Of a DNA stretch of 64,000 bases, positions 4,500 through 35,321 are shown piece by piece. A program made the translations under genes and the position numbers. Where the stretch lies: contig CACLKR010000003.1 of NCBI GenBank assembly GCA_902607625.1, positions 10,001 to 74,000 of the forward strand. Reading direction: 5' to 3'. The DNA is from an uncultured Pelagibacteraceae bacterium. Its GTDB lineage: Bacteria > Pseudomonadota > Alphaproteobacteria > Pelagibacterales > Pelagibacteraceae. Under the pieces are notes generated by a model that saw only the letters and a program-made list of their open reading frames with translations, ran no database searches and was not told where the DNA came from. Each line of letters opens with the position of its first letter. Within the stretch, counting starts at the first letter, position 1.

Positions 4500-4543
4500 T
4501 TTACCGTTCAATTTTTGAACGATATAATGTTCAAATATTGAAC
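4500..4543 (+). promoter_or_regulatory. promoter with embedded palindromic operator, copy 1
   Basis: TTTACC (4500-4505) and TATAAT (4523-4528) are 17 bp apart. The spacer holds a perfect palindrome GTTCAA-TTT-TTGAAC (4506-4520). A second perfect copy, GTTCAA-ATA-TTGAAC (4529-4543), sits directly after the -10, 23 bp from the first. Any dimeric repressor bound here would cover both hexamers. No gene of its own follows before copy 2, about 157 bp downstream, so a transcript would run into the MarR/NusG pair. The leftward radical SAM operon starts 125 bp to the left and could share the sites. Confidence 0.72.
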
Positions 4544-4656
4544 ATTTTATAAAAAAAGTCAAGATTATTATGGCTTATTTTAAAAAGTAAGTAATATATG
4601 CAATCTGTTTTTTTAATTATTAAATTAATATTTATTATCTAATAGAATGATTTTAC

Positions 4657-4700
4657 TTTACCGTTCATAATTTGAACGCTATAATGTCCAACATTAGAAC
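4657..4700 (+). promoter_or_regulatory. promoter with embedded palindromic operator, copy 2
   Basis: TTTACC (4657-4662) and TATAAT (4680-4685) have the same 17-bp spacing as copy 1. The spacer palindrome GTTCAT-AAT-TTGAAC (4663-4677) has one arm mismatch. A degenerate second site, GTCCAA-CAT-TAGAAC (4686-4700), keeps the 23-bp offset. Transcription would begin near 4692, directly before the EPS-type MarR regulator, which makes autoregulation plausible. Confidence 0.72.
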
Positions 4701-4738
4701 AAGCTATGCAAATCCAACATTAGAACAAGCTATGCAAA
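4687..4738 (+). repeat. 26-bp perfect tandem duplication at the start of the MarR-type gene
   Basis: A 26-base unit beginning TCCAACATTAGAAC and ending GCTATGCAAA occupies 4687-4712 and is repeated without gap at 4713-4738. Each unit contains one ATG (4706 and 4732). Because 26 is not a multiple of three, only the second ATG is in frame with the regulator. The duplication lies in the expected 5' leader and looks like recent replication slippage. Confidence 0.9.
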
Positions 4739-5061
4739 ATAGTCAGGACCATCTCAATTTATTAAGAAAAATTAAAAACAAACCAGAATCATCACAAAGG
4801 GAGCTTGCCGAAGAACTTGGTTTTAGTTTAGGAAAATTAAACTATTGCCTTAAGGCTTTAAAAGCCAAAGGCTTAATAAAAATGAGTAACTTTAAAAAAA
4901 ATCCAGACAAAATTAATTATATTTATGTTCTTACCCCAAGGGGAATTTCGGAAAAAACTAAACTTACGATCAATTTTATGAGATTAAAAATGAAGGAATA
5001 TGACGAATTGAAAAATGAAATAATGAAATCAAATGTGGCTAGTAGCAAAAATAAAAAATAA
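4732..5061 (+). CDS. MarR-family EPS-associated winged-helix regulator
   Basis: The protein is about 109 residues from ATG at 4732. It contains a winged helix (SQRELAEELGFSLGKLNYCLKALKAKGLIK) with a basic wing and a C-terminal helical tail, matching the small MarR-type regulators found at the head of exopolysaccharide operons. The frame is open back to a TTG at 4672 and an ATG at 4684, but both lie on the predicted -10 and so would not be on the mRNA. The ATG at 4732 lies about 40 nt after the expected transcription start. The gene overlaps the NusG-like gene by 29 nt. It probably binds the palindromes in its own promoter; this is inference from position. Confidence 0.8.
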   Translation: MQNSQDHLNLLRKIKNKPESSQRELAEELGFSLGKLNYCLKALKAKGLIKMSNFKKNPDKINYIYVLTPRGISEKTKLTINFMRLKMKEYDELKNEIMKSNVASSKNKK

Positions 5062-5533
5062 TCATTCGAAAATATTCCAACAGAATCTTTCAAGAAAGGC
5101 TAAAGATAAAATTATTTTTTACGAACCAAAAATAATTTATGAAAAATTTTTACATAGAAAAAATATTAAAAAGCAAAAACCTTTACTTGAAAATTACATT
5201 TTTTGTTTTAATGAAAATTTTAAATGTAATGTTTTTTGCAGTAAGTTTAAGTATATAAAAGGACTTAAATTTTTTTTGGAAGGACATATAAATTGTCAGA
5301 ATGAAATTTCGGAATTTATTAGTTATTGCAAATCATTCGAGGATAAAAATGGTTTTATTACAAATGTTTTTTTTAAAAATATTGTAAATACAAAAGCAGA
5401 ATTTACTTCTGGACCATTTGTAAATATGCGTTTTGAAATTATCAAAAAGCAAAAAAATAAATTAAAAATATCAATAGGTAAATTTATTACAACTATACTT
5501 GATAGTAATAATTATTCATATCGTCCTATTTGA
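5033..5533 (+). CDS. NusG-like (RfaH/LoaP/UpxY-type) specialised elongation factor
   Basis: The 166-residue protein starts MWLVAKIKNNHSKIF, the usual opening strand of a NusG N-terminal (NGN) domain, and keeps the pattern ENYIFCF and KYIKGLKFFLEG typical of NGN domains. Its C-terminus (FTSGPFVNMRFEIIKKQKNKLKISIG) fits a KOW-type barrel. It is diverged from housekeeping NusG, and its place behind an EPS-type regulator at the head of a roughly 17-kb rightward glycan operon matches known NusG paralogues that let RNA polymerase read through long polysaccharide operons. It overlaps the regulator gene by 29 nt, so the two are probably translated together. I see no convincing ops-like recruitment site downstream. 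Confidence 0.75.
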   Translation: MWLVAKIKNNHSKIFQQNLSRKAKDKIIFYEPKIIYEKFLHRKNIKKQKPLLENYIFCFNENFKCNVFCSKFKYIKGLKFFLEGHINCQNEISEFISYCKSFEDKNGFITNVFFKNIVNTKAEFTSGPFVNMRFEIIKKQKNKLKISIGKFITTILDSNNYSYRPI

Positions 5534-29765: not shown

Positions 29766-30695
29766 ATGAAAAAAGGAAAATATTTAATAACTGGTTGTGC
29801 GGGTTTTATTGGTTCAAATTTGGTAAAAAATTTATATAAAAATTATGAATTGATTTTAGTTGATGATCTTTCAGAAGGATCTGTAGTAAATTTGCCAGTT
29901 ACCTTAAGGAAAAAATTAATAAGAAAAAAAATTCAAAATATAAATAAATTGAAAACTAAAAAGATAGATGGAATTTTTCATCTTGCGGCTCAGTCTTCAG
30001 TACCTTTATCTTTAAAAGACTTTTATAAAAGTAGTTCAAACAATCTATTGAGTTCAATTAGAATATTTGAATTTTCAAAAAAATATTCTGCTCCAGTGGT
30101 CTACGCTTCTTCTTCCGCAATTTATGGAAATTTACCTTTAGGGCATGATGAAATTAATAAATTTTCTATATTGTCACCTTATGCTCAAGATAAACTATCT
30201 GTGGAAAATTATGCAGAAATGTCATATGAAATTTTCGGAGTGTCTTCTGTGGGTTTGAGATTATTTAATGTTTACGGTCCAGGCCAGACAGCAAAAAGTC
30301 CTTACTCTGCAGTTATACCAATTTTTATTTATAGAATGTTAAAAAATTTACCAATAACAATTAATGGTGGCTTTCAAACGAGAGATTTTATTTATATTGA
30401 TGATGTTATTGATGTTATGAAAAAATCAATGGAAAAAATACAAAAAAAAACGATTTACAAAAGTTTTAATTTGGGCACAGGACGATCTGTAAAAATTGAT
30501 GTGTTGTTTAATTTGATTAAAAAAATTATTGGGGCCAACCCCCAATTAATAAAAAAAAGACTTGAAAAATATGATCCAATAAAATCTTCCGGCACTTTTA
30601 AAAAATTAAATAAGTTTTTAAATTTTAAGAAGAAAAAATTTACTAAAATTGAGGATGGTCTAGTTAAGACCATTAGTCATTTTAGGGGTGTGTAG
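29766..30695 (+). CDS. NAD-dependent epimerase/dehydratase (UDP-hexose 4-epimerase-like)
   Basis: This 309-residue extended short-chain dehydrogenase has YLITGCAGFIGSNLVKNL, FHLAAQSSVPLSL, SSSAIYGNLPLG, the catalytic YAQDKLSVE and GLRLFNVYGPGQ, all as in UDP-glucose/UDP-GlcNAc 4-epimerases. It probably supplies an epimerised UDP sugar to the neighbouring transferases. The gene's last three codons and its TAG stop (30693-30695) lie inside the tRNA-Val gene on the same strand, so mRNA and tRNA cannot both be matured intact from one transcript. Confidence 0.85.
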   Translation: MKKGKYLITGCAGFIGSNLVKNLYKNYELILVDDLSEGSVVNLPVTLRKKLIRKKIQNINKLKTKKIDGIFHLAAQSSVPLSLKDFYKSSSNNLLSSIRIFEFSKKYSAPVVYASSSAIYGNLPLGHDEINKFSILSPYAQDKLSVENYAEMSYEIFGVSSVGLRLFNVYGPGQTAKSPYSAVIPIFIYRMLKNLPITINGGFQTRDFIYIDDVIDVMKKSMEKIQKKTIYKSFNLGTGRSVKIDVLFNLIKKIIGANPQLIKKRLEKYDPIKSSGTFKKLNKFLNFKKKKFTKIEDGLVKTISHFRGV

Positions 30696-30760
30696 TTCAG
30701 TGGTAGAACGCTACGTTGACATCGTAGAGGTCGCTAGTTCGATCCTAGCCACACCCACCA
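30686..30760 (+). tRNA. tRNA-Val (anticodon GAC)
   Basis: A full cloverleaf can be drawn: acceptor GGGTGTG/CACACCC, D arm GTTC/GAAC, anticodon stem CTACG/CGTAG with loop TTGACAT (anticodon GAC), T stem GCTAG/CTAGC with loop TTCGATC, discriminator A at 30757 and an encoded CCA at 30758-30760. Every stem pairs perfectly. Its first ten bases are also the last codons and stop of the epimerase gene. Confidence 0.95.
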
Positions 30761-30794: not shown

Positions 30795-30838
30795 TTTACT
30801 GTTCAATTATTGAACGATACAATGGTCAAAACGTTAAT
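30795..30838 (+). promoter_or_regulatory. promoter with embedded palindromic operator, copy 3
   Basis: TTTACT (30795-30800) and TACAAT (30818-30823) are 17 bp apart, and the spacer again holds a perfect palindrome, GTTCAA-TTA-TTGAAC (30801-30815). The second, downstream site seen in copies 1 and 2 is degenerate here (GGTCAAAACGTTAAT). Transcription would start near 30830 and leave a leader of about 110 nt before the radical SAM gene at 30941. Confidence 0.7.
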
Positions 30839-30940: not shown

Positions 30941-32890
30941 ATGAAAATTTGTATTTGCACAACACCAATAAGACCCGTCCCTACTACGTGGCCTCCTTTT
31001 GGATCGATGGCCGTAATTCAGTCCCTACGAAATATTGGTGAAAAAGTAAGTTTTTATCACATCGACTATCACAGATATAATCATAGTCAAAATTCTGAAT
31101 ATTTTGCTAGTCAACAATTTGATATGGTGGGTATTAGCTCTGTAGTATCAACAGCCTACGCATATACCAAATATCTGACACAGTTAATTAAAAAAGTTAG
31201 TCCAAAAACTATTGTATTTGTTGGAGGAAATCTTGCAGCAAGTGCAGAAGTTTTACACAGGAAAGCTAATGCAGATTACTGTGTCATTGGTGACGGAGAA
31301 ATTATTGTACAGAATTTGGCTAAAGCTATTAAAGAGAAAAAAACAAGCAGTGATGATTTAAACAAAATTCTTGGAATAACCTACGTTGACTCAAAAAATA
31401 AATTTAGATTTACTGGTTATGATCATCCTTTGCCTGCTGATATGATAGAAAGACCTGACTATTCAATTTTGGAAGATGATAATTCAATCAATAATTATAT
31501 CATCGAAAAATCTGGATATCCTTATAACCTAGACGAAGACTATAATAAAAGTAGCCTAGACAAAGACTATAGTGCTAAATCTGATGATGTACTTGATAGC
31601 GAGCCGAGATTTAAAAATAAGAATGAAAAGGAAAAAGCTAAAATGCAAGCTACCGTTGTTGTTGCAAAAGGTTGTGTCGCTAGGTGTACTTTTTGTCATC
31701 GTTTCGAAAAAGGTTACAGAGTTAGTCCTTTAGATAGCATAATCAATCATATGAAAATGTTAAAAGAGAAATACAATGTTAGATATATTAATATCGGTGA
31801 TGAAAATTTTGGTTCATATAAAAATGAGACGATAAAATTAGTTAAAGCGATGAAATTATTAGGTTTTCAATGGCGCGCCGCTACTCGCGTACATACGGTG
31901 AATCATGATCCTAATGTTTTAAAAACTTGGAAAGAAAATGGCTGCGTTTTAATTGGTTCTGGCATTGAATCTGGAAGTCCCACTATGCTTAAAGTTATGG
32001 AAAAGAAAACTTCTCTTGAACAAAATATTGAAGCAACGAAGGCCGCGTATAAGGCTGGGATAACAACTACTATGCAGCTAGTCATTGGCATGCCCGGAGA
32101 GACTGATGAGACGATTGAAGAAACGATTGATTTTTTAATACGAACAATGCCGTATTATCCTGATTTTTTTAGAAATAAAGTCACCTTCCAATTGAGTATT
32201 AATTATGCACAAGCATTACCAGGCACGCCTTTATATGAATATGCCAGAGAACATGGTTTTATCGGCAAGGATCTAGACTCCGAAGAAGCTTATTTAATTA
32301 AAATTAGTGATACAGACGCTTATGATAGTGATCACTATATAAATTATACTCAGCAGCCTTTGTTAAAAGCACTAAGTTGGCGACCTAAAATATTGTGGAG
32401 AGTTTTTCGAGAACATGCAAAAACTAACCTTAATATTTCGCTTTCAAAATTAAGTATTCTTCTAAGCTTGTTAATAATTTCTATAAATCAAATATTTAAG
32501 ATAAGACTAAATTCACCTTTAAAAAAAACATTTGATAAATTAGAAAGTAAAGTTAAAAAAGGTTCACGAACATCCTTTAACAACTATTTTTACTTTCAGT
32601 ATGGCTTAAAATTATTGTTACCTTGGAATAAACTTACTTATCCGTTTATTGTACTTTTAGTTGCATTTAAGGTATCAAAAGGTGTATCAAGATACATAAG
32701 GGGAACATTAAAAACAGATTCTCGCAAACGATCAGAAAGCGGTACGTACTGGTTCTTTAAGTTAATTTTTGATCACATTTACTGGAGTTTAAATGTATTT
32801 AAAAAAATTAATTTACCAAAAGAAACGCTTAGAAAAATTGTTAAAATCAAAGACTCAGACGAATCTTTACTAATAAGACAAGGGCGATAA
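30941..32890 (+). CDS. radical SAM protein with putative N-terminal B12-binding domain and long C-terminal extension
   Basis: The 649-residue protein has an N-terminal B12-binding-type fold (VSFYHIDYHRYN, FDMVGISSVVSTA, IVFVGGNLAAS, YCVIGDGE) and a radical SAM motif GCVARCTFCHRF with cysteines near 245, 249 and 252. IGSGIESGSPTMLKVMEKK and LVIGMPGETDET are typical of the family. Residues about 170-230 are acidic and low-complexity, and the last 150 residues are a basic, partly hydrophobic extension suggesting membrane contact. It is a single-gene unit behind promoter copy 3. Bound cobalamin is inferred from family layout; the reaction is unknown. Confidence 0.82.
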   Translation: MKICICTTPIRPVPTTWPPFGSMAVIQSLRNIGEKVSFYHIDYHRYNHSQNSEYFASQQFDMVGISSVVSTAYAYTKYLTQLIKKVSPKTIVFVGGNLAASAEVLHRKANADYCVIGDGEIIVQNLAKAIKEKKTSSDDLNKILGITYVDSKNKFRFTGYDHPLPADMIERPDYSILEDDNSINNYIIEKSGYPYNLDEDYNKSSLDKDYSAKSDDVLDSEPRFKNKNEKEKAKMQATVVVAKGCVARCTFCHRFEKGYRVSPLDSIINHMKMLKEKYNVRYINIGDENFGSYKNETIKLVKAMKLLGFQWRAATRVHTVNHDPNVLKTWKENGCVLIGSGIESGSPTMLKVMEKKTSLEQNIEATKAAYKAGITTTMQLVIGMPGETDETIEETIDFLIRTMPYYPDFFRNKVTFQLSINYAQALPGTPLYEYAREHGFIGKDLDSEEAYLIKISDTDAYDSDHYINYTQQPLLKALSWRPKILWRVFREHAKTNLNISLSKLSILLSLLIISINQIFKIRLNSPLKKTFDKLESKVKKGSRTSFNNYFYFQYGLKLLLPWNKLTYPFIVLLVAFKVSKGVSRYIRGTLKTDSRKRSESGTYWFFKLIFDHIYWSLNVFKKINLPKETLRKIVKIKDSDESLLIRQGR

Positions 32891-35205: not shown

Positions 35206-35321
35206 TGCCGGTGATTATTGCGAAGGGGCCATACCCGATCCCATTTCGAACTCGGAAGTCAAGCCCTTCAGCGCCGATGGTACTTTGTCTTAAGGCATGG
35301 AAGAGTAGGACGTTGCCGGCA
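35206..35321 (+). rRNA. rrf: 5S ribosomal RNA
   Basis: The 116-nt sequence opens TGCCGGTGATTATTGCGAAG and ends with the complementary TTGCCGGCA, closing helix I. The internal CATACCCGATCCCATTTCGA and CTCGGAAGTCAAGCCCTTC stretches are the conserved loop B/C region of bacterial 5S, and GATGGTACT and GGAAGAGTAGG mark the later loops. No 16S, 23S or spacer tRNA lies beside it. The gene upstream is a leftward transaldolase-like gene and the gene downstream is rpmJ. Confidence 0.96.

Follow-up and report, generated by a model that had tools for sequence, protein, structure and literature searches.

Putative palindromic operators ahead of a MarR_EPS regulator gene in a SAR11 surface-polysaccharide island

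Promoters and palindromes before the regulator gene

Near the start of the window analysed here (64,000 nucleotides of contig CACLKR010000003.1, positions 10,001 to 74,000, from an uncultured Pelagibacteraceae bacterium of the SAR11 group), two promoters, P1 and P2, precede a gene for a small winged-helix regulator of the MarR_EPS family. Each promoter carries two palindromes, which we treat as putative operators: O1 within the spacer and O2 over the predicted transcription start (Table 1). The original prediction described two TTTACC-17 bp-TATAAT promoters 157 bp apart, each with a palindrome in the spacer and another 23 bp further on covering the expected start, and this layout is borne out to the base. 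The identity of the nearest gene was also correctly recognized as an EPS-type winged-helix regulator, since the TIGR04176 profile matches its product at 2e-38 with 130.7 bits, passing the curated cut-off of 88 bits. The P1 and P2 blocks are 74% identical over 62 nt. P1 fits the SAR11 profile built from 66 operator pairs, and its 23-bp distance between O1 and O2 is the most frequent spacing among relatives.

Table 1. Coordinates of the features discussed, as positions in the window
Feature	Position	Strand	Description
Promoter P1	4500-4528	+	-35 TTTACC (4500-4505), 17-bp spacer, -10 TATAAT (4523-4528); predicted start ~4535
Operator O1 of P1	4506-4520		GTTCAATTTTTGAAC; exact match, fills the spacer, kept in relatives
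Operator O2 of P1	4529-4543		GTTCAAATATTGAAC; exact match, covers the predicted start
Promoter P2	4657-4685	+	-35 TTTACC (4657-4662), 17-bp spacer, -10 TATAAT (4680-4685); predicted start ~4692
Operator O1 of P2	4663-4677		GTTCATAATTTGAAC; GTTCA-N5-TGAAC exact, 1 mismatch to GTTCAA-N3-TTGAAC
Operator O2 of P2	4686-4700		GTCCAACATTAGAAC; 2 mismatches, decayed
Exact tandem duplication, 26 bp	4687-4712/4713-4738	+	Repeats part of O2 of P2
MarR_EPS (TIGR04176) winged-helix regulator	4732-5061	+	109 aa; likely start ATG 4732
NusG/RfaH/UpxY-like transcription factor	5033-5533	+	164-166 aa; likely start ATG 5033; overlaps the regulator gene
Third promoter of the same build	30795-30838	+	TTTACT (30795-30800), GTTCAATTATTGAAC (30801-30815), TACAAT (30818-30823), degenerate palindrome GGTCAAAACGTTAAT (30824-30838)
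B12-binding radical SAM protein	30941-32890	+	First gene behind the 30795 promoter; predicted regulon member

The repetition of the layout had been held to exceed what AT-rich DNA yields by chance, and it does. The motif TTTACNGTTCAANNNTTGAACG, with up to three mismatches, has 7 matches in the window against 0.13 expected, and none of the dinucleotide shuffles reached 7. The palindrome alone (up to two mismatches) was found 10 times in the AT-rich window against 6.6 expected, which is not significant, and a generic sigma-70 scan of the window was uninformative (6 found versus 10.5 in shuffles). The significance of the window motif therefore comes from its fixed promoter phase and, above all, from its conservation in relatives.

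The translation start of the regulator is most likely ATG 4732, as judged from the sequence, rather than 4684 or 4672, because the latter two precede the predicted transcription start of P2 and because the family profile begins at about 4735, though the reading frame opens further upstream. The exact 26-bp duplication shifts the in-frame ATG from 4706, the usual site just past O2, to 4732. It thus accounts for the gap between O2 and the start codon; without it the ATG would lie a few bases past O2, as in relatives. The duplicated promoter and the 26-bp tandem repeat are particular to this genome.

Conservation of the palindrome and its link to the gene

The SAR11 order was represented by 397 genomes, of which 105 carry MarR_EPS (one of them marginally). 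Readable upstream DNA was available for 99 copies of the gene, and in 97 of these a palindrome with at most two mismatches lies within 250 bp upstream, in at least two copies in 67 cases. For an equal amount of DNA, the rest of the same loci predicts 0.55 matches (at most one mismatch). The two operators of a pair are mostly 20-24 bp apart, with a mode of 23 bp. In the profile of the 66 pairs, CTTTACT is followed by GTTCA-N5-TGAAC and, after two bases, by a TATAAT-like box; then comes the second operator, and in most cases the ATG stands only a few bases behind it. The GTTCA and TGAAC arms of the profile are constant and its central bases variable. The promoter spacer of the relatives is 16-18 bp, mostly 17 bp, and their hexamers are good.

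A census of all 5-mer inverted repeats, which used no prior knowledge of the motif, likewise ranked GTTCA-N5-TGAAC first in SAR11 (97/99). The same word came first in 100 loci of other Proteobacteria (85/100), and after similar proteins had been dropped at 70% identity it was still found in 70 of 83 loci, the next word reaching 7. Loci with the operator outside SAR11, where the MarR_EPS profile scan used a beta/gamma subset alignment, include those of Marinomonas, Methylotenera, Methylophaga, Methylobacillus, Herbaspirillum and Alcanivorax. Outside SAR11 a locus usually has just one operator, and in several loci it stands near the likely start site; the additional spacer operator may thus be a SAR11 elaboration.

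The motif also tracks the gene. Consensus sites numbered 203 in 80 MarR_EPS-positive genomes, compared with 42 for a reversed-pattern control, whereas 40 MarR_EPS-negative genomes of the same order held 8, compared with about 30 for the control. Of the SAR11-order genomes, 61 of the 104 with MarR_EPS contain the promoter-phased form, as against 3 of the 290 that lack the gene (Fisher 3e-39). One of these three has a site that runs up to the edge of a contig, and its MarR_EPS gene may simply be unassembled.

The enrichment in relatives on which the original prediction hinged was therefore found, both within SAR11 and beyond it. Autoregulation, which had been proposed as the simplest model, is strongly supported at the level of sequence, as the palindrome precedes the regulator in nearly all relatives. 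Going further, our analysis adds a probable regulon, a DNA specificity that is probably family-wide, and the probability that the two-promoter layout is local.

Island context, candidate regulon and fusions

HVR2, a hypervariable region of SAR11 genomes, has been placed between the 23S and 5S rRNA genes (PMC2217521); neither a promoter nor a MarR regulator is mentioned in the text of that paper. In the present genome, a 16S rRNA gene lies just upstream of the window (L041:3775-5010) and a 5S rRNA gene at 35207-35321, so that the first 35 kb of the window very probably represent the HVR2 surface-polysaccharide island. In fifteen relatives' loci MarR_EPS is found at most 1 kb downstream of the 23S rRNA 3' end, mostly at 140-220 bp, a position that belongs to HVR2.

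The gene overlapping that of the regulator was originally predicted to be a NusG partner, and this assignment stands. The gene or its relatives give weak matches to the UpxY, RfaH and LoaP models (for UpxY, 29.9 bits, below the curated cut-off of 100 bits). The predicted structure (pLDDT 88.6), whose top Foldseek matches are NusG and RfaH with E-values down to 2.4e-7, contains the NusG N-terminal domain fold followed by a KOW-type region. Among relatives, the gene next to MarR_EPS usually follows tightly, and at 40 of about 98 loci it encodes a NusG paralogue.

Besides those upstream of the regulator, some 20 further sites stand before island genes in genomes with MarR_EPS, including the one at window position 30801, which belongs to a third promoter whose second palindrome is again 23 bp on. 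The genes behind these extra promoters are of the NeuB-type synthase, radical SAM/SPASM, DegT aminotransferase, carbamoyltransferase, SDR, PhyH, AMP-binding, HMGL-like, DUF4910 and ABC exporter types, i.e. typical polysaccharide-island content. Double sites in loci L035, L146 and L161 have the same layout. One of the operator pairs, on contig C8 of the genome studied here (G000:C8:26711/26735), is perfect and lies between APS-kinase-like and sulfotransferase-like genes. Judging from these positions, autoregulation is probably not the only role of the operator, which would also serve a regulon.

Some observations stand apart from this set. A tRNA-Val gene (30686-30760) lies within the island directly before the 30795 promoter, and a palindrome match inside it (30695) has no promoter context and was judged to be due to chance. 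The same applies to scattered one-mismatch matches on contigs C1, C5, C6 and C7. On contig C8, open reading frames at L035:4783-6632 resemble phosphonate-synthesis genes by eye; the APS-kinase-like gene also lies there, next to the operator pair with the sulfotransferase-like gene behind it.

Winged helices of the same type are also found joined to other proteins, and in every fusion type examined operators lie upstream. Three SAR11 genomes (loci L113, L282 and L283 of G205, G096 and G146) encode fusions with a radical SAM/SPASM enzyme (about 435 aa), and each of the three has operators upstream. One further SAR11 genome (G159) encodes a winged helix-NeuB fusion directly downstream of the 23S rRNA 3' end (L163:3442-4548, minus strand), which has its own operator pair in a standard promoter. 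In the alphaproteobacterial family f14 the fusion partner is a bifunctional ATP sulfurylase-APS kinase (PAPS synthase; L191, L193, L195-L201, L292 and L293). Here GTTCA-N4-TGAAC occurs 55-77 bp before the domain in 11 of 11 cases inspected, and in three of them the site recurs about 49 bp upstream of the first. A plasmid search with this protein gave partial-length matches, and those listed are annotated as MarR_EPS, mostly from Sulfitobacter, Roseivivax and similar genera. Finally, three proteins of genus g22 (213-231 aa; L286, L287 and L288 in G613, G683 and G596) combine a related winged helix with a C-terminal region without a Pfam match, and all three have paired GTTCA-N5-TGAAC, 27-28 bp apart, behind TTGAC.

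These DNA-binding enzyme fusions, PAPS synthase among them, are thus pointed to as having the same kind of operator in front. We tentatively propose, as an idea that we would not yet favour, that promoter-operator and winged helix travel together as a self-limiting module, which would have been placed several times at the head of genes for surface polysaccharides and sulfation. Pathway enzymes that in some lineages carry the winged helix would respond to their own flux or dosage by repressing the gene that encodes them, and a single DNA code would have been kept across Proteobacteria.

Proposed mechanism and comparison with known systems

Based on these observations, we suggest that MarR_EPS binds the palindromes and represses its own operon and other promoters of the island, a reading that we consider likely as a whole. 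The operators would be bound by the MarR_EPS protein encoded just downstream, as a dimer joined through the long C-terminal helix, with one winged helix on each half-site of GTTCA-N5-TGAAC. With one dimer in the spacer and another covering the start site, the promoter would be closed to RNA polymerase. In this way, the regulator would limit its own operon, which opens with its own gene and that of the NusG/RfaH-like factor and continues into the polysaccharide genes; it would also control other promoters of the same island that bear the site. In the present genome, the promoter-operator block appears to have been duplicated into an upstream copy with perfect operators and a proximal copy that is partly decayed. 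As a part of the same reading, the DNA specificity would have been kept by the MarR_EPS family across Proteobacteria. The sequence elements themselves, the degree to which they are kept and their linkage to the gene are observed directly, and the fold is predicted; what we infer here comprises binding, dimerisation, repression rather than activation, the use of both promoters, and a limiter without a dedicated ligand domain.

Several observations weigh against this reading. O2 of P2 is degenerate, and the palindrome is absent at two SAR11 copies of the gene (in G147 and at the second copy in G173). Many of the extra sites came from a search pattern shaped like the promoter, which partly preselects their phase. 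Beyond SAR11, the TIGR04176 cut-off is passed in only 26 of 79 matching phylum genomes.

The different parts of the proposal face different rivals. That the protein binding the palindrome is MarR_EPS seems to us nearly certain from the distribution of the motif. GTTC-N7-GAAC is similar to the half-sites of other regulators, e.g. LexA, and a global regulator might bind it, with MarR_EPS as merely one of its targets. However, the motif is almost absent from genomes of the same order that lack MarR_EPS, and a global regulator is not expected to disappear along with that gene. Moreover, fusion proteins with only the winged helix in common also have the operator, and we regard such a regulator as very improbable. 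Given binding, repression is very likely, because the operators sit in the spacer and over the start. A position within the spacer is also typical of MerR activators, and a bound protein could reshape the promoter in a MerR-like manner and turn the operon on. MerR activators work on over-long spacers of 19-20 bp, whereas the spacers are 17 bp in both window promoters and 16-18 bp in relatives, with good hexamers; a second operator covers the start site, and the predicted fold is PadR/MarR-like. Activation thus appears improbable, although less so than a global regulator. As inverted repeats present in several copies, the palindromes might instead act as RNA hairpins or be spreading repeat elements. 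On the other hand, the copy in the spacer precedes the transcribed region, the arms are fixed while the centre varies, there is no terminator-like structure, and the extra promoter copies are in phase with unrelated flanks. Of all the alternatives this one is the most remote.

A much more serious question concerns the use of the two promoters. It is quite possible, though not our preferred view, that only P2 is functional and P1 is a relic of recombination or duplication, or, in reverse, that P1 replaced a decaying P2. Both promoters have TTTACC, a hexamer seldom met in relatives (6% have C as its last base), and they are probably copies; nearly all relatives have a single promoter block. Because of this shared rare hexamer and the single pair in the congener G283, the tandem promoters look, from sequence comparison, like a local, lineage-specific duplication rather than the rule. 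However, the operators and -10 box of P1 are perfect while P2 is mismatched, which suggests selection on P1, and a sequence scan found no terminator between P1 and the regulator gene.

The predicted structure of the regulator consists of a winged helix and a single 38-residue C-terminal helix (pLDDT 85.5). Among solved structures, compact PadR proteins (Z up to 12.4) and also MarR proteins come closest in fold, and a PDB sequence search found no close relative (the best was LrpA, 2e-5). Pfam MarR models PF01047 and PF12802 score below their gathering cut-offs (21.3 versus 24.6 bits and 25.1 versus 27 bits), and only the general HTH_24 model exceeds its own. The Pfam PadR model is also below its cut-off (0.046), although the predicted structure fits a winged helix with a single C-terminal helix (Z 12.4). 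As in MarR-type regulators, a predicted winged-helix fold coincides with palindromic putative operators in the protein's own promoter. Since the regulator has no separate ligand domain, MarR_EPS seems, as far as the model indicates, more likely to act as a dosage limiter than as a classic drug-type sensor.

SAR11 bacteria, which rank among the most abundant cells on Earth, have few regulators. In a literature search, which left most subscription journals outside its reach, we found no published operator, regulon or structure for the MarR_EPS family, no account of the control of the SAR11 hypervariable surface-polysaccharide island, and no description of an RfaH/UpxY/LoaP-type gene coupled to a winged-helix autorepressor. 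A transcriptome paper only names a MarR_EPS family member (PMC10599003). For this uncharacterised regulator family, which is found across Proteobacteria, our analysis predicts an operator and a regulon and offers a mechanism that can be tested.

Among known systems, the compact PadR repressors LmrR and Rv3488 share the predicted fold, with one C-terminal helix after the winged helix (Z 11-12; about 105 residues), but are only about 15-23% identical to the regulator and have another genomic role. PadR proteins typically autorepress an operon. The winged helix is also shared with the autorepressing MarR-family proteins MarR, MexR and SlyA, which have two adjacent palindromic operators over their own promoter; full-length MarR proteins possess N-terminal helices, which the present regulator lacks. 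The partner gene shares the NusG/RfaH fold with RfaH, UpxY and LoaP, the NusG paralogues of polysaccharide operons, and like them heads a polysaccharide island. As for the SAR11 HVR2, the resemblance lies in the rRNA genes, 16S just upstream of the window and 5S at 35207-35321. The regulator itself is a clear member of the TIGR04176 family and, in accordance with the polysaccharide (EPS) association of that family, heads polysaccharide genes beside a NusG-like gene, with O-antigen-type, sulfotransferase, DegT and ABC genes downstream; to this our analysis adds a predicted operator together with predicted target genes.
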